Source: Campylobacteraceae bacterium
GTDB taxonomy: Bacteria > Campylobacterota > Campylobacteria > Campylobacterales > Sulfurovaceae
Reading direction: 5' to 3'
NCBI GenBank assembly: GCA_027083895.1
Contig: JALWMN010000122.1
Span: 1 to 15,352, forward strand
DNA: 15,352 bases
Shown here: in pieces, positions 943 through 11,478 of the stretch
Numbering within the stretch: position 1 is the stretch's first letter
Layout of the letters: every line of letters begins with the position of its first letter
Translations under genes and position numbers: made by a program
Notes under the pieces: model-generated
Told to the model about the DNA's origin: nothing
Databases searched by the model: none
The model's input: only the letters and a program-made list of their open reading frames with translations

Positions 943-1109
943 AAAAACTCCTACTAAATAATTTATGTAATAGTAGCATAAAAATGAGATTATCATAAGA
1001 GTGCATAGCAAATTTGCATTTTTTATTGTGAGTAAATATGTAAGAAAGGTAGCAATTTTTAAGGTGAGATTTGAGTGATAGATGATTGTAAAAATAAACC
1101 CAAATTTTG

Positions 1110-1187
1110 CATTAGAGATTAACAACCTATAGGAGATATTTAGCTATGGGCATTTACAAAAATCTATCAATTAACCTTCAGGTTAAC
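1110..1187 (+). repeat. Dispersed repeat, copy A
   Basis: About 78 bases that recur in reverse orientation at 11302-11380. The blocks are: CATTAGAGATTAACAAC (1110-1126, identical in both), a variable 11-base spacer (1127-1137), a 27-base block identical in both (1138-1164, beginning ATTTAGCTATGGGC), one mismatch, ATCAATTAACCT (1166-1177, identical), and a closing palindromic segment TTAACCTTCAGGTTAA (1171-1186). Outside the spacer only about four positions differ. Such identity cannot be chance even at this AT content. The nature of the element (regulatory RNA, miniature repeat, protein-binding site) is unknown. Confidence 0.8.
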
Positions 1188-1209
1188 CTCAAAATTTTTG
1201 CAACTCCCT

Positions 1210-1235
1210 AAAACAAAGCATTTGCCAAATCTTTG
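1210..1235 (-). terminator. Candidate terminator of the tatB-SUI1 operon
   Basis: On the minus strand, CAAAG, ATTT, loop GGC, AAAT, one bulged G and CTTTG (1235 down to 1214) form a nine-base-pair hairpin with one bulge, followed directly by TTTT (1213-1210). It lies about 50 bases past the stop of the SUI1 gene, where the seven-gene operon should end. Confidence 0.5.
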
Positions 1236-1283
1236 CTAATTCTAATACAAAATTTTGGTGTAAAATCTGTTGGTTTTATACTC

Positions 1284-1613
1284 CTATTTTTTAAATCGAA
1301 AGCCTCTATTCTCTAATAGTTCTTTGGCTTTGGTGGCTACTTCGCCTTGGAGTTCTAGGGTGTTCTCTTTTATTGTGCCACCGCTGCCTAGGCGGCTTTT
1401 TAACTCCTTGAGGAGTTTTTTAAATTCATTTGGCTCTAGGTAGAATGGCTTTATTACAGTAACTACTTTGCCTCGGCGTTTCTCTTTGGCAATGTAGAGT
1501 TGGTGTTTGGCTGGCTCTTTTGTCTCTTGTTTGGTATTTTTAGATTTAGCTTTATTATCACTACTCCAGCCATCTTCAAATTTGGCTCCCATCTCAAATA
1601 GATTTTTTTTCAC
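1284..1613 (-). CDS. SUI1/YciH-family translation initiation factor homologue
   Basis: 109-aa protein with a charged, low-complexity N-terminus (1-38) and a SUI1 (eIF1-like) domain from about residue 40 to the end. Recognisable features are RRGKVVTVI (46-54), KSRLGSGGT (72-80) and the LELQG strand (86-90), all in the usual order. Bacterial SUI1 proteins such as YciH are thought to influence start-codon selection on the 30S subunit; their role is not essential and poorly defined. The start is a GTG at 1613: GAGGAG lies five bases upstream, overlapping the end of yaaA, whose stop is two bases before this GTG. The alternative Met8 has no better signal. It is the last gene of the tatB operon. Confidence 0.87.
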   Translation of the reverse strand: MKKNLFEMGAKFEDGWSSDNKAKSKNTKQETKEPAKHQLYIAKEKRRGKVVTVIKPFYLEPNEFKKLLKELKSRLGSGGTIKENTLELQGEVATKAKELLENRGFRFKK

Positions 1614-3380: not shown

Positions 3381-4409
3381 TTAAAGTATGAGCATCGCAT
3401 CTCCATAGCTATAGAAGCGGTACCCCTTTTTTATTGCTTCATTATACAACGTTAAAGTTTTATCTCTCCCTAAAAAAGCACTTACAAGCATAATTAATGT
3501 ACTTTTTGGAAGATGAAAATTGGTAAGAAGGTAGTTTACTCGAAGTGGCTTATTGTAAGGGTGCAAGAAGAGATCGCACTCCCCACTTGGCTCTTTAGTT
3601 CTTACGTAGTGTTCAATTGTTCTTGTTACAGTTGTACCAATAGCTAAGATCTTTTGGTTGCTATCTATAATCTTTTGTGCATCTTTTGGGATATTGTAGT
3701 ACTCTGAGTGCATAGGGTGTTTGGTAATCTCCTCTACCTCAACAGGTTTAAAGGTGCCAGCTCCTACATGGAGCGTAAGTGTATAGGTAGGAAATTGAGA
3801 CTGTAACTTTGCTAGAAGCTCTGGCGTAAAGTGTAGCGATGCAGTTGGAGCTGCAACAGAGCCACTCTTTTTAGCAAAGAGGGTTTGGTAGTTTTTTGCA
3901 TCCTCTTTTGTATCTTCTCGATTCATATAGGGCGGCAAGGGAATATGGCCAATCTCCTCTAAAGTAGTGATAAGCTCTTTGAAATTGAGCTGCTTTCCAT
4001 TCTGAAAAAACTCTACAATACGACTCCCATCACTTTTTAGCTCGACTACTTTTGCCTCTAAGTTTTGCTGAAACTGCAAAAGAGTACCAATCTTTACTCG
4101 CCCCTTTATTAAAACAACAAATCTATTATCTTGTAGTGGTTTAATAACAAGAAGTTCTACTTTGCCACCACTTAGTTTTTGACCAAAAAGGCGTGCTTTA
4201 ATGACTCGTGTATCATTAAGAAAAATTGTACTACTTTTAGGAATAAACTCTAAAAGCTCTCGAAATACTGTATGGGTAATAGTATCATCTGCTCTATTGT
4301 AAACAAGGAGCCTTGCACTATCTGCAGGAGTGACTGGAGTTGTTGCTATAAGCTCTTTTGGGAGCTTATAGTCGTAAGCATCAGTTTGGAGATCTTTATC
4401 TATCATCAT
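3381..4409 (-). CDS. queA: tRNA preQ1(34) S-adenosylmethionine ribosyltransferase-isomerase
   Basis: 342-aa enzyme that transfers and isomerises the ribosyl group of S-adenosylmethionine onto preQ1 at tRNA wobble position 34, giving epoxyqueuosine. Family motifs are present in order: AYDYKLPKELIATTP near the N-terminus, LNDTRVIKARL, VAAPTASLHFT, LHVGAGTFKPV, TNFHLPKSTLIMLVSAF and YRFYSYGDAMLI at the end. The reading frame stays open to an ATG at 4472, but the extra 21 residues (KKKRRALKRKK...) are only the other-frame shadow of the acidic TatC tail and are not part of QueA. The tandem ATG at 4409/4406 gives the normal family length. It overlaps the tatC stop by 14 bases and has no clear Shine-Dalgarno, so translation is probably coupled to tatC. 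Confidence 0.94.
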   Translation of the reverse strand: MMIDKDLQTDAYDYKLPKELIATTPVTPADSARLLVYNRADDTITHTVFRELLEFIPKSSTIFLNDTRVIKARLFGQKLSGGKVELLVIKPLQDNRFVVLIKGRVKIGTLLQFQQNLEAKVVELKSDGSRIVEFFQNGKQLNFKELITTLEEIGHIPLPPYMNREDTKEDAKNYQTLFAKKSGSVAAPTASLHFTPELLAKLQSQFPTYTLTLHVGAGTFKPVEVEEITKHPMHSEYYNIPKDAQKIIDSNQKILAIGTTVTRTIEHYVRTKEPSGECDLFLHPYNKPLRVNYLLTNFHLPKSTLIMLVSAFLGRDKTLTLYNEAIKKGYRFYSYGDAMLIL

Positions 4410-5439
4410 TGTTAAGTAACTTCTGTTCTTCTTTCTTTTGAGTGCTCTCCTCTTCTTCTTCGTCATCCTCATCTTTGTATGGGTTAATCACTTTTGCCAC
4501 TAAAATAGAGACTCCATAGAGGAGAATAAGTGGTGCTGCCATGAGCAGTTGTGTAATGACATCTGGTGGTGTAAGGAGAGCTGCAATTATAAAGATAGCA
4601 ACAATTGCATATTTAAAGAAGTCTAAAAGACTCTTTTCGGTTATTAATTTGATAGATGCTAGGAAGTAGACAACCATAGGGAGTTCAAATGCTAAGCCAA
4701 AACCAAAGAGAATCTTTGCAAAGAAGCCAATATAATCTTCGATATTAATAAGTGGAGTATAAAGAAAGGCACCAAAGGTAATTAAGAACTGGAAACCAAA
4801 TGGAGTAACGATATAGTATGCAAAGAGTACACCAACCGCAAACATTACTGTTACCCCTATTAGGAATGGAAGAGCCATCTTCTTTTCGTTCTCGTAAAGG
4901 CCTGGGGCAATAAAGAGCCACATCTGCCAAAGAATGATAGGGAGTGCCAAAAAGATTGCAGAATAGAGTGAAACTTTAAGAGCAACCATAAAGACCCCAC
5001 CAATTTGGTTAGTTGTTACACTCCCCCATAGGACATTTCCACCCGCACTATTTTTGAGCTGTTGGGACCTCTTTGCATTGAGTGCAAGATCACTTATAGC
5101 ACTCGCTAAGAGTCTCTCATTCTGTGTAGAGCTATTACTCTCTAGAACTTTTTGGGCACTCTGCAGTGCTCTCTCAAAAAGAGGAGTGCTTCTATTTGTA
5201 TCTGACTGTAGAGTAACATTAAACTCTTCACCCTCATTTGCCACGCTCCACTTCCCCTCTTTGCTCTTTTGAACCTTTTTATTTACCTGGTGCAAAGCAC
5301 TCTCTAGTGGTGCAGTTACCCAATCAAGAATTGGTTTATAGAAGATAAAAGAGAGAACAAAGGCTACAATTAATGCCATAATAGAGATAAAGATTCTCAT
5401 TCGAAGCTCAGCTAAGTGCGGTTTAATATCTTCTAGCAT
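4396..5439 (-). CDS. tatC: Twin-arginine translocase subunit TatC, enlarged periplasmic loop
   Basis: 347-aa inner-membrane receptor for twin-arginine signal peptides. Conserved parts are HLAELRMRI at the N-terminus, LYENEKK (Glu185, equivalent to E. coli Glu103), FELP (Glu252, equivalent to Glu170) and LLTPPDVITQ before the last helices. Six hydrophobic helices can be traced, the first at about 17-36 and the second at about 149-170. Odd points: the loop between helices 1 and 2 is about 110 residues against roughly 35 in E. coli, filled with polar helical sequence (about 48-135); and the C-terminus is a very acidic tail (DEDDEEEEES). The start overlaps the tatB stop as TAATG, with AAGGA six bases upstream. 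TatB is encoded directly upstream; tatA is not in the window. Confidence 0.95.
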   Translation of the reverse strand: MLEDIKPHLAELRMRIFISIMALIVAFVLSFIFYKPILDWVTAPLESALHQVNKKVQKSKEGKWSVANEGEEFNVTLQSDTNRSTPLFERALQSAQKVLESNSSTQNERLLASAISDLALNAKRSQQLKNSAGGNVLWGSVTTNQIGGVFMVALKVSLYSAIFLALPIILWQMWLFIAPGLYENEKKMALPFLIGVTVMFAVGVLFAYYIVTPFGFQFLITFGAFLYTPLINIEDYIGFFAKILFGFGLAFELPMVVYFLASIKLITEKSLLDFFKYAIVAIFIIAALLTPPDVITQLLMAAPLILLYGVSILVAKVINPYKDEDDEEEEESTQKKEEQKLLNNDDR

Positions 5440-9389: not shown

Positions 9390-10049
9390 GTGTTGGAACT
9401 CCTATTGCAGTCTCAAATTATCATTACAGATGATTTTCATGGTACAATTGAGAAACTTCAATCACTTGCACCAAAAGAGGCTAGCTTTGAACTCTTTATA
9501 AGAGAGGATGAAAACTTTTTAGTAAGCGATGCAAATGAAGTTATAGCGAAAGCCTACTTAGCTTCGCAAGAGAAGGTCTACCTCTGTTTAGCTAGTAATA
9601 CTTTCTCAGAAGTAGTGCAAAATAGGCTTTTAAAGATTATAGAAGAGCCACCAAAGAATAAAGAGTTTATACTTTTAACACCCAATAAGGCCGCTTTGCT
9701 TCCTACAATTCGATCACGGATGATTGTTACCAATTTGCATCAAAAGCAAGAGGATATAGAGATCAATTTAGATTTAGAAAATCTTAATCTAGAGAGCCTC
9801 TATAACTTTATTCAAGAGTATAAAAATCTTAAGCAGCAAGAGGCATTAGGGGTAGTAGAGTCAATTATGAAAAGAGCAATGCTATCAGATAGCTTCCATT
9901 TAGATGAAGATACTCTTACACTCTTTAGCAAAGCAAGAGAGGCTTTGCATTTAAGATCACCTGTTGATTTTGTATTGACAACACTACTTCTAAAACTCTT
10001 AGCAAAAAAGAGAAAGAAGGTACAAGATGCGACTCTACCAAATAGATAA
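9390..10049 (+). CDS. holB: DNA polymerase III delta' subunit-like protein, short form
   Basis: 219-aa clamp-loader subunit homologue. It keeps the AAA+ segment NRLLKIIEEPP (78-88), FILLTP sensor-like strand (93-98) and LPTIRSRM (104-111), which matches the SRC region of delta'. It has no Walker A P-loop, and the zinc module and part of the C-terminal collar found in the 334-aa E. coli protein are missing. Delta' does not itself hydrolyse ATP, so loss of the P-loop is compatible with function, and the H. pylori protein at this locus is similarly short. It starts with GTG at 9390; AAAGG lies a few bases upstream. The last 23 bases overlap folP in another frame. Confidence 0.85.
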   Translation: MLELLLQSQIIITDDFHGTIEKLQSLAPKEASFELFIREDENFLVSDANEVIAKAYLASQEKVYLCLASNTFSEVVQNRLLKIIEEPPKNKEFILLTPNKAALLPTIRSRMIVTNLHQKQEDIEINLDLENLNLESLYNFIQEYKNLKQQEALGVVESIMKRAMLSDSFHLDEDTLTLFSKAREALHLRSPVDFVLTTLLLKLLAKKRKKVQDATLPNR

Positions 10050-11163
10050 ACCGCGTGACATAAGTAGCTACCTCAAAGCCTTAGGTGTAGAAGGTGGTGG
10101 CATTAAGATTATGGCAAAAAAGGCAGAGTTGCTCTTTATAGAGATTAAAGAGCTCAAAACCCCAGCAGTAAATATTCTTAAACAAGATGCTCTCAGTGTA
10201 GGTGCAGAGTTGGCAGTACCAGGTGGAGTAATTTTATGCGAAAAACCATACTATGACTGCTTGCTTATAGGTACAAAACGCCAATTAGAGAGATTAGCAA
10301 GAAAAGAGCTCGCCCAGCCATTTGGCTTAAAAAAGTTGGCAATTGAGTTAAAGGCTCTGCTTTACCCAAAAAAGTTTGATCTAAAGATAATGGGAGTTAT
10401 TAACGCTAATAGCGATAGCTTCTATAGCGGTAGCCGCTTTATGGGTGATGAGGCTCTTAAGCAGATAGAACAAATGATAAGCGATGGTGCGGCAATTATA
10501 GATATTGGTGGTGTATCAAGCCGCCCTGGTTCAAAAGCTGTAAGTGCTAGCGAAGAGCTTGAAAGAGTAAAAGATATTCTCGATACCGTGAAAGTAAAAA
10601 AACTCTATGAAAAGGCAGTATTTAGTATCGACTCTTACGCACCAGAGGTTGTAGAGTATGCCTTAAATTGTGGCTTTAAAATTATTAACGATATTACCGG
10701 TGCAAGAGATGAAAAGCTTATAAAATTAGCTGTGAAATATGGAGTGAAGCTATGTATAATGCATATGCAAGGCACTCCCGAAACCATGCAAAAGAGCCCA
10801 CACTATGAGTGTGTAGTAAGCGAAGTAGATGCATTTTTTGCAAAGCAGATAGAAAAATGTGAAGAGCTAGGTTTAAGTAGAGAAGATATTATTTTAGATG
10901 TCGGTATAGGCTTTGGGAAAACCCTAGAGCATAACTTAAAGCTCCTAAAAGCTCACCAACACTTTACCCACTTTGGCTGCGAACTTTTAATTGGAGCAAG
11001 CCGAAAATCGATGATAGATATGATTACGCCAACCCCTATCCAAGATCGCCTACCAGGAACTCTCATAATACACACTAAAGCTGTAGAGAGAGGGGCAAGT
11101 ATTGTTAGATGCCACGATGTTAAAGAGCATATCCAAGCCTTTAAGGTGTGGGAGAGGTTGTGA
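10027..11163 (+). CDS. folP: Dihydropteroate synthase with N-terminal extension
   Basis: 378-aa enzyme joining p-aminobenzoate to dihydropterin pyrophosphate in folate synthesis, the target of sulfonamides. The TIM-barrel domain begins near residue 118: MGVINANSDSF (122-132) replaces the more usual MGILNVTPDSF, then DIGGVSSRPGS (pterin and sulfonamide loop), INDITGA, CIMHMQGTPETMQ, DVGIGFGKT and IGASRKSMI. The first 115 residues are an extension absent from most bacterial DHPS but usual in Campylobacterota, where total length is about 380; its role is not known to me. The ATG lies 23 bases inside holB with GAAGG six bases upstream. It is the last gene of the operon. No clear intrinsic terminator follows. 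Confidence 0.94.
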   Translation: MRLYQIDKPRDISSYLKALGVEGGGIKIMAKKAELLFIEIKELKTPAVNILKQDALSVGAELAVPGGVILCEKPYYDCLLIGTKRQLERLARKELAQPFGLKKLAIELKALLYPKKFDLKIMGVINANSDSFYSGSRFMGDEALKQIEQMISDGAAIIDIGGVSSRPGSKAVSASEELERVKDILDTVKVKKLYEKAVFSIDSYAPEVVEYALNCGFKIINDITGARDEKLIKLAVKYGVKLCIMHMQGTPETMQKSPHYECVVSEVDAFFAKQIEKCEELGLSREDIILDVGIGFGKTLEHNLKLLKAHQHFTHFGCELLIGASRKSMIDMITPTPIQDRLPGTLIIHTKAVERGASIVRCHDVKEHIQAFKVWERL

Positions 11164-11301: not shown

Positions 11302-11380
11302 TTTAACCCATAGGTTAATTGATCGATTTTTGTAAATGCCCATAGCTAAATGATTTGCGAAAAGTTGTTAATCTCTAATG
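11302..11380 (-). repeat. Dispersed repeat, copy B (inverted relative to copy A)
   Basis: Read on the minus strand from 11380 down, this repeats copy A: CATTAGAGATTAACAAC (11380-11364), a 12-base spacer unlike that of copy A (11363-11352), the 27-base block identical to 1138-1164 (11351-11325), one mismatch, ATCAATTAACCT, and the palindromic close TTAACCTATGGGTTAA (11318-11303). The closing stem survives although its centre differs from copy A, which hints at a structure rather than a primary sequence constraint there. It lies just past folP, and copy A just past the SUI1 gene, so the pair brackets the conserved core-gene block. Confidence 0.8.
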
Positions 11381-11478
11381 TAAATTTTGTGTTTAATAGC
11401 TTCATAGTAATGTATTCGTTAATTTAGATAACTCTTTTGTAACTTATACTTTTTTATTTGAGGTTATAAATTCATTTA

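Follow-up and report, generated by a model that had tools for sequence, protein, structure and literature searches.

A multi-copy miniature transposable element of uncultured Campylobacterota, most likely of the IS1380 type

The closely similar inverted repeats in a 15,352-bp stretch of a Campylobacteraceae genome (contig JALWMN010000122.1; the whole stretch is called the window below) very probably represent a MITE that is mobilised in trans by an IS1380-family transposase. This mode of mobilisation is preferred because matching or closely similar ends bound IS1380 transposase genes elsewhere. In our reading, the window feature is a MITE family that is new, ordinary in kind and most likely of the IS1380 type, and it has an offshoot resembling Rickettsia palindromic elements (RPE).

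Extent and anatomy of the window copies

A first-pass annotation of the window described an inverted pair of intergenic repeats of about 78 bp, one at 1110-1187 (copy A) and one on the minus strand at 11380-11302 (copy B). The 17-base CATTAGAGATTAACAAC, 27-base ATTTAGCTATGGGCATTTACAAAAATC and 12-base ATCAATTAACCT blocks on which that description relied were each found in both copies, and the sequence agreed with a spacer of 11 bases in one copy and 12 in the other. The closing stem TTAACC..GGTTAA likewise retained its pairing while its centre differed between the copies. A BLAST search of the assembly with copy A matched copy B at E = 1.7e-24, which is beyond chance. The repeat is therefore real, but 1110-1187 is only the best-shared part of a larger element. 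Similarity among the aligned copies of this genome continued far past 1187, and the right end was the reverse complement of the left. Both copies lie just past operon ends, as described, with copy A 25 bp from the SUI1 stop codon and copy B 143 bp past folP. The features are as follows.

1094-1098, no strand: the five bases to the left of copy A, ATAAA (sequence; row L031 of the flank table)
1099-1258, plus strand: copy A, full-length miniature transposable element of 160 bp in family-consensus orientation (own-copy and consensus alignments, terminal-repeat pair)
1099-1117, plus strand: left terminal inverted repeat of copy A, CCCAAATTTTGCATTAGAG (pattern match, 0 mismatches)
1171-1186, plus strand: apical hairpin TTAACC-TTCA-GGTTAA at the element centre, the closing stem mentioned above (sequence; helix 4 of the consensus hairpin)
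1240-1258, minus strand: right terminal inverted repeat of copy A (pattern match, 1 mismatch)
1284-1613, minus strand: SUI1-domain gene, neighbour of copy A (Pfam PF01253, 50.9 bits)
10027-11163, plus strand: folP-type gene for a pterin-binding enzyme, next to copy B (Pfam PF00809, 250 bits)
11302-11306, no strand: first target-site duplication TTTAA at copy B (single TTTAA at the empty site of G009)
11307-11391, minus strand: copy B, a left half-element of 85 bp that stops at the apical hairpin, GGG/TTAAA in element orientation (alignment; absent from the orthologous site of G009)
11392-11396, no strand: second target-site duplication TTTAA at copy B (single TTTAA at the empty site of G009)

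The right flank of copy A (1259-1263, TGTAA) is identical to the left flank ATAAA at two of five positions, and the duplication is no longer exact. Copy B aligned well to the consensus only as far as the central hairpin, and its right half is missing. Among 17 loci inspected for half-elements, two (L291, with TTTAA on both sides, and L296, with CTAAA and TTAAA) resembled copy B in stopping at the apical hairpin by a duplication-like 5-mer. A cryptic internal transposon end would explain half-elements of this kind, and so would the deletion, at short direct repeats, of one arm of the hairpin.

Elsewhere in the window, positions 155-186 (direct repeat D2) hold a lone GTTTAACCCAAATTTT that is like the left end of the element, and no partner was seen. 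The listed queA and tatC ORFs overlap by 77 bases at 4396-4472; the Pfam match of queA begins at residue 31, so its true start may lie further in.

Copy number and distribution

We searched the assembly of this organism (G000; 1,235,893 bp, 247 contigs, 72% complete) by BLAST with copy A and obtained 43 matches at 37 places, of which six matches were second hits to palindromic copies already counted and five places were fragments of 25-47 bases. The element is thus genome-wide, as had been supposed. The window pair is two among many copies, one of which is half an element. The end motif ACCMAAAWTTTGYATTAGAG, allowing two mismatches, matched 60 times in this genome, versus 0 for a reversed-pattern control. 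Terminal repeats were present in the aligned copies (30 loci with flanks and 29 distinct copies, L020 and L022 being one and the same); the right end was missing in two of the 30 loci (L005, L018) and lay off the contig edge in L023. Full-length copies were mostly 160-189 bp. A miniature palindromic repeat, one of the options raised by the first-pass annotation, describes these copies well: they are short and numerous, carry terminal inverted repeats and form one long imperfect hairpin.

Matches were found in 17 of 60 genomes searched: the genus had them in 10 of its 12 genomes, the rest of the family in 4 of 25 and the rest of the order in 3 of 23; those in G004, G046 and G054 were just 22-29 bases long. 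A copy with 86% identity in G041, which belongs to another family, suggests transfer between families. No match to the element was found in phages or plasmids, the latter giving just short partial matches at E values up to 10, and viral contigs held no exact match to the 19-mer GCATTAGAGATTAACAACC. One viral contig carried a single end motif with no partner (L258). Two larger members of 487 and 556 bp with nested repeats were seen in G008 (L112 and L113, on contigs C236 and C192), and the nested repeats include an inverted repeat around GTCATTCTGAGCGTAGCGAAGAATCT. At the other extreme, L058, L124, L125 and L126 are very short members of 48-60 bp that consist of hardly more than the two ends.

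Target-site duplication and an empty site

Target-site duplication was assessed in 93 distinct elements of 140-205 bp having at most two mismatches at both ends, sister subfamilies included. The five bases before CC were compared with the five after GG, and the right flanks were permuted 500 times as a control. An exact 5-bp duplication was present in 49 of the 93 elements and absent from the other 44, compared to a permuted mean of 15.1 and a maximum of 24. The window subfamily showed exact duplications in 16 of 33 elements (permuted mean 5.8, maximum 13). For duplication lengths from 1 to 10 other than 5, none exceeded the permuted maximum. The target site was AT-rich and TTNAA-like.

The closest relative, G009, has DNA identities of 86.0% and 88.4% across two long aligned stretches. 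At the site of copy B, it contains one TTTAA, whereas the window contains TTTAA, 85 bp and TTTAA; this is the one clean empty site that we show. Another copy of this genome (L002) is also absent from G009, with a clean right junction and a diverged left side, and at a third (L017) G009 matched at the right flank only. G009 also has copy A, diverged and with extra bases inserted; copy A is therefore an older insertion, common to the window and G009. Copy B is the younger half-element.

Hairpin conservation and genomic location

Of the 68 window-type elements, 39 share one length, 162 bp, and these were aligned without gaps over 172 columns; the remaining 29 were excluded. Covariation was scored on a hairpin of 61 pairs, itself folded from the consensus of these 39 sequences. 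In this alignment, 90.6% of the cells could pair, 26 of the 61 pairs had changed on both sides, and there were 97 doubly changed cells. The corresponding values were 15.8 pairs and 26.8 cells for shuffled controls, which ignore relatedness, and 17-26 cells for slid partners, which are disadvantaged because the structure was folded from the same consensus; for these reasons the strength of the covariation is less certain than the numbers imply. The covariation score was 0.156 versus 0.077, and a measure of further pair types was weakly above the shuffles (reached by 7 of 500). Template switching from arm to arm within the palindrome could be the source of part of the signal. Within the window subfamily (31 copies), 159 changes were one-sided and 29 two-sided, and 23 of the latter still paired; 15.3 two-sided changes would be expected under independence.

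The element forms one long imperfect hairpin, and these patterns indicate that paired changes preserved it as the subfamilies diverged. We read them as single copies that drift and a palindrome that is retained in the lineage that keeps moving. Since individual copies mostly bear uncompensated changes, we infer that the hairpin matters for the mobility or survival of the active lineage, not for a job at each locus.

The location of the 29 full-length copies in this genome was determined with a simple longest-ORF rule in place of a gene caller. Sixteen copies lay between convergent, eight between tandem and two between divergent ORFs, two were at contig edges, and one overlapped an ORF of at least 90 aa. 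Convergent gaps made up 9,229 of the 17,760 intergenic bp in the same loci, counting the gaps that bear elements; any location bias is slight because this is about half of the intergenic bases.

The hairpin raises the alternative of a structured or cis-acting RNA, such as a small RNA or an mRNA-stabilising or terminator-like hairpin, kept for a local function. The long covarying hairpin is what such an RNA would display, two-sided changes exceed independence in the 31-copy subfamily (29 versus 15.3, although shared ancestry may explain the excess), and 16 of the 26 full-length copies with both neighbours known sit between convergent genes. However, one-sided changes were far commoner than two-sided ones (159 versus 29), and with convergent gaps as frequent as they are in these loci, the convergent location is hardly distinctive. 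Furthermore, Rfam gave 0 matches at the gathering score in the window, and no terminator-like site was called inside 1099-1258 in a scan of 750-1700. The ends, the 5-bp duplications and the empty site are hallmarks of a transposon, and the small RNA family suggested by the first-pass annotation is not supported. We consider an RNA kept for local function improbable; a co-opted role of single copies is possible.

Transposase that moves the element

In the mechanism that we favour, an IS1380-family transposase supplied in trans would recognise the element ends, whose core is AACCCAAAWTTTGCATTAG. It would insert the element at an AT-rich, TTNAA-like 5-bp site and duplicate that site. Insertion sequences of the IS1380 family in ISfinder have duplications of 4-5 bp and CC ends, and a transposase gene in the same genome is not strictly required for MITEs.

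We scanned GTDB contigs for the 19-mer AACCCAAAWTTTGCATTAG and obtained at least 117 stretches, which among the matches listed were mostly Campylobacterota MAGs, the rest being MAGs with other labels. An exact end with an inverted end (at most three mismatches) 40-600 bp away was found in 80 of the 117 listed matches and was lacking in 37. Outside Campylobacterota, the listed matches with such short end pairs came from MAGs labelled Elusimicrobia, Omnitrophota, Spartobacteria and one Actinomycetota; single end matches in distant taxa may be due to chance.

An autonomous partner was sought among end pairs up to 4 kb apart in L141-L258 (the 117 listed genome stretches and one viral). An uncultured Bacteroidetes stretch (L217), one of those lacking an end pair at short range, contained a 1,400-bp element with window-type ends, TTTAA on both sides and a 445-aa ORF. 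This ORF (P0001) scored 205.7 bits with the NCBIfam model transpos_IS1380 (NF033539; cut-off 180), which identifies it by a curated model, and 133 bits with Pfam DDE_Tnp_1_4. Of six long end pairs that were read, L217 alone enclosed a transposase, and L236, L255, L252, L238 and L146 enclosed other genes; L177 and L251, which also had long pairs, were left out of the reading.

Relatives of the L217 protein were present in 7 of 398 genomes of the order at E <= 1e-10, and none was found in viral contigs. In G109 (L266), the two ends, with 1 and 2 mismatches, enclose an interrupted IS1380 gene, and in G032, from the window's own family, an IS1380 fragment adjoins one left end with 3 mismatches (L263). 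The plasmid pACIB of Aliarcobacter cibarius, also a member of Campylobacterota, carries an annotated IS1380 family transposase between CCCGCATTATGCAATAG and CCCAGATTATGCAATAG, with ATAAT on both sides (L289). Related proteins occur at seven places on this plasmid, and the ends were examined for one copy. They differ at one base from the ends of a MITE subfamily of the genus relatives (CCCGGATTATGCAATAG in L104) and at about four positions from those of the window subfamily. The three IS1380 elements with ends of this kind (L217, L266 and L289) are all in other taxa; that in L266 is interrupted, and the ends of L289 are those of the related MITE subfamily.

The end motif at up to four mismatches was absent from the IS1380 relatives L264, L268, L269, L270, L272 and L273. 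A right end with 5 mismatches was visible by eye in L264, and L259-L262 gave end matches only with 5 or 6 mismatches; L265 and L274-L277 were left out of this check. Within the genus, searches with PF13612, PF01609 and PF13701 yielded no element with both ends, and the IS1380 transposase model PF13701 had no match in this genome (72% complete) or the other 11 genus genomes. We infer both that an IS1380 transposase was the mover here and that it is no longer present in the lineage.

The absence of an IS1380 transposase from the genus genomes is also what would be expected if a different family (IS982, IS5/IS1031 or another of the IS4 clan) had moved the MITE and the ends resembled those of IS1380 by chance. 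Genes matching PF13612 and PF01609 are indeed present in 3 and 6 of the 12 genus genomes, respectively. However, none of the 10 PF13612 or PF01609 loci (L131-L140) had the end pair, and L133, L134 and L135 showed just single end matches with 3-4 mismatches. Such ends are borne, by contrast, by the three IS1380 elements named above, two of which have an exact 5-bp duplication (TTTAA in L217, ATAAT in L289). We therefore rate mobilisation by another family a little lower still than the RNA alternative. That the pACIB ends belong to a related subfamily and that the two-sided changes exceed independence slightly lowers the weight of a MITE of the IS1380 type and slightly raises that of an RNA.

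The two window copies are mutually inverted, and the first-pass annotation considered that they might be bipartite protein-binding sites, or might recombine and so invert the 10-kb segment between them; both have a negligible chance of being correct, since the apparently free spacer is the diverging part of a hairpin arm, copy B is missing from G009, many further copies occur in both orientations, and the order and orientation of the marker genes were constant in all five testable genus relatives (G009, G003, G005, G002 and G011, with yaaA and folP on one contig; the other six had no testable contig).

Coding capacity and frame-neutral sister elements

A coding reading of the window element, in which an N-P-K-F-A-L-E frame runs through diverged relatives, was also considered. 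It was rejected because differences were evenly spread over the codon positions (257, 244 and 269 in 28 pairs of eight open elements, with no bias) and because the own subfamily has stops. In the end-defined frame, 131 of 136 strand readings of the window family contained a stop. Twelve of its 68 elements were of frame-neutral length and none of these was open, so the in-frame character of RPE was not found in the window family.

We collected 122 elements across the loci among the matches listed, of which 54 share the ends and not the interior; these 54 sister elements are not independent, many coming from the same MAGs and subfamilies. An element was called frame-neutral if its length plus the 5 bp of the duplication was divisible by 3, which was the case for 25 of the 54 listed. 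Among these 25, the end-defined frame was open on one or both strands in 21 and on both in 13, and 8 lay inside long open frames (50 or more codons preceding the element and 20 or more following it). The other 29 listed sister elements included 11 that were open and 2 within long open frames. The frame-neutral length together with the open frame, often on both strands, would therefore permit insertion in genes without destruction of the frame.

In G004, a sister element lies within an ORF matched by the nicotinate nucleotide adenylyltransferase model TIGR00482 (119.9 bits versus 112.45). The element adds 56 aa in frame to this nadD-type ORF (L056, 1859-2599), at residues 143-198. The insert was absent in the orthologs of 9 of 10 relatives (184-217 aa), which matched up to residues 142-146 and resumed from 195-208; for the 268-aa frame of G002, the first piece of the match alone was listed. 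In the window's own genome, just the element part of the ORF matched. DNA alignment with G008, G005 and G003 likewise showed no insert, and G008 has an uninterrupted GAGTTAAATTT. The flanks of the insert in G004 are CTAAA on the left and TTAAA on the right, identical at four of five positions. Sister elements were also in frame in DUF4153 (L129, 160-1299), abhydrolase-like (L211, 6190-7134) and patatin-like (L142, 1446-3482) ORFs. Codon-position differences among 12 sister elements were 193, 189 and 231 (37 pairs with at most 60 differences), which does not clearly point to selection acting on the inserted peptide.

The same end motif bounds elements of 157 or 160 bp at nine loci in MAGs labelled Elusimicrobia (L186, L191, L197, L206, L219, L227, L228, L229 and L247); in every one of these elements, the end-defined frame is open on one strand or both. 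A broader reading, to which we give somewhat less than even weight, is that one end motif unites an IS1380-mobilised palindromic superfamily in Campylobacterota and in MAGs labelled otherwise (Elusimicrobia, Omnitrophota and a small number of others). Some of this superfamily would be frame-neutral, landing in genes and adding about 53-56 residues, and the window family would be an intergenic, stop-bearing branch, with the hairpin kept by selection in the active lineage. If the hairpin is selected in this way, the folded DNA itself would matter for transposition or host escape.

Comparison with known elements and significance

IS1380 insertion sequences share the terminal motif of the window element (L217) or have a closely similar one (pACIB, WP_024774781.1), together with an AT-rich 5-bp duplication. 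Unlike the window element, which has no gene, they encode a transposase of 429-445 aa and have a length of about 1.4-1.5 kb. The bacterial MITEs Nezha, NEMIS/CREE, RUP and MITEPye1 are, in the passages available from the papers that name them (PMC3733652, PMC4133298, PMC11578231), like the window family in being short, multi-copy and mostly intergenic, with terminal repeats, target duplication and a hairpin. By these descriptions, ends aside, MITEPye1 is set apart by its tie to IS1182 in place of IS1380. The eukaryotic piggyBac, for which the available part of one paper takes IS1380 as the outgroup, resembles the window element by description alone in its TTAA-like target and CCC-type ends and differs in its 4-bp duplication (PMC10813416). 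Some of the sister elements are palindromic, about 155-165 bp long, open in one frame and in frame in genes, and in this they are like RPE as described in the available passages of a review (PMC10969869). The sisters differ from them in having IS1380-type ends and 5-bp duplications, and the window family in being intergenic and stop-bearing. In the portions of the open-licence PMC literature that were accessible, we found no link of a MITE to IS1380 and no description of the window family.

The analysis names a genome-wide repeat of uncultured Campylobacterota and links it to one particular transposase family, so that its mobility can be tested. Covariation between subfamilies, set against uncompensated change in single copies, provides a usable case for asking whether selection on MITE hairpins serves transposition rather than host regulation. 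The mode of spread of RPE is poorly understood. Part of the wider set of elements sharing these ends behaves like them and has a plausible transposase, and the frame-neutral sisters may offer a transposase-linked parallel to RPE.
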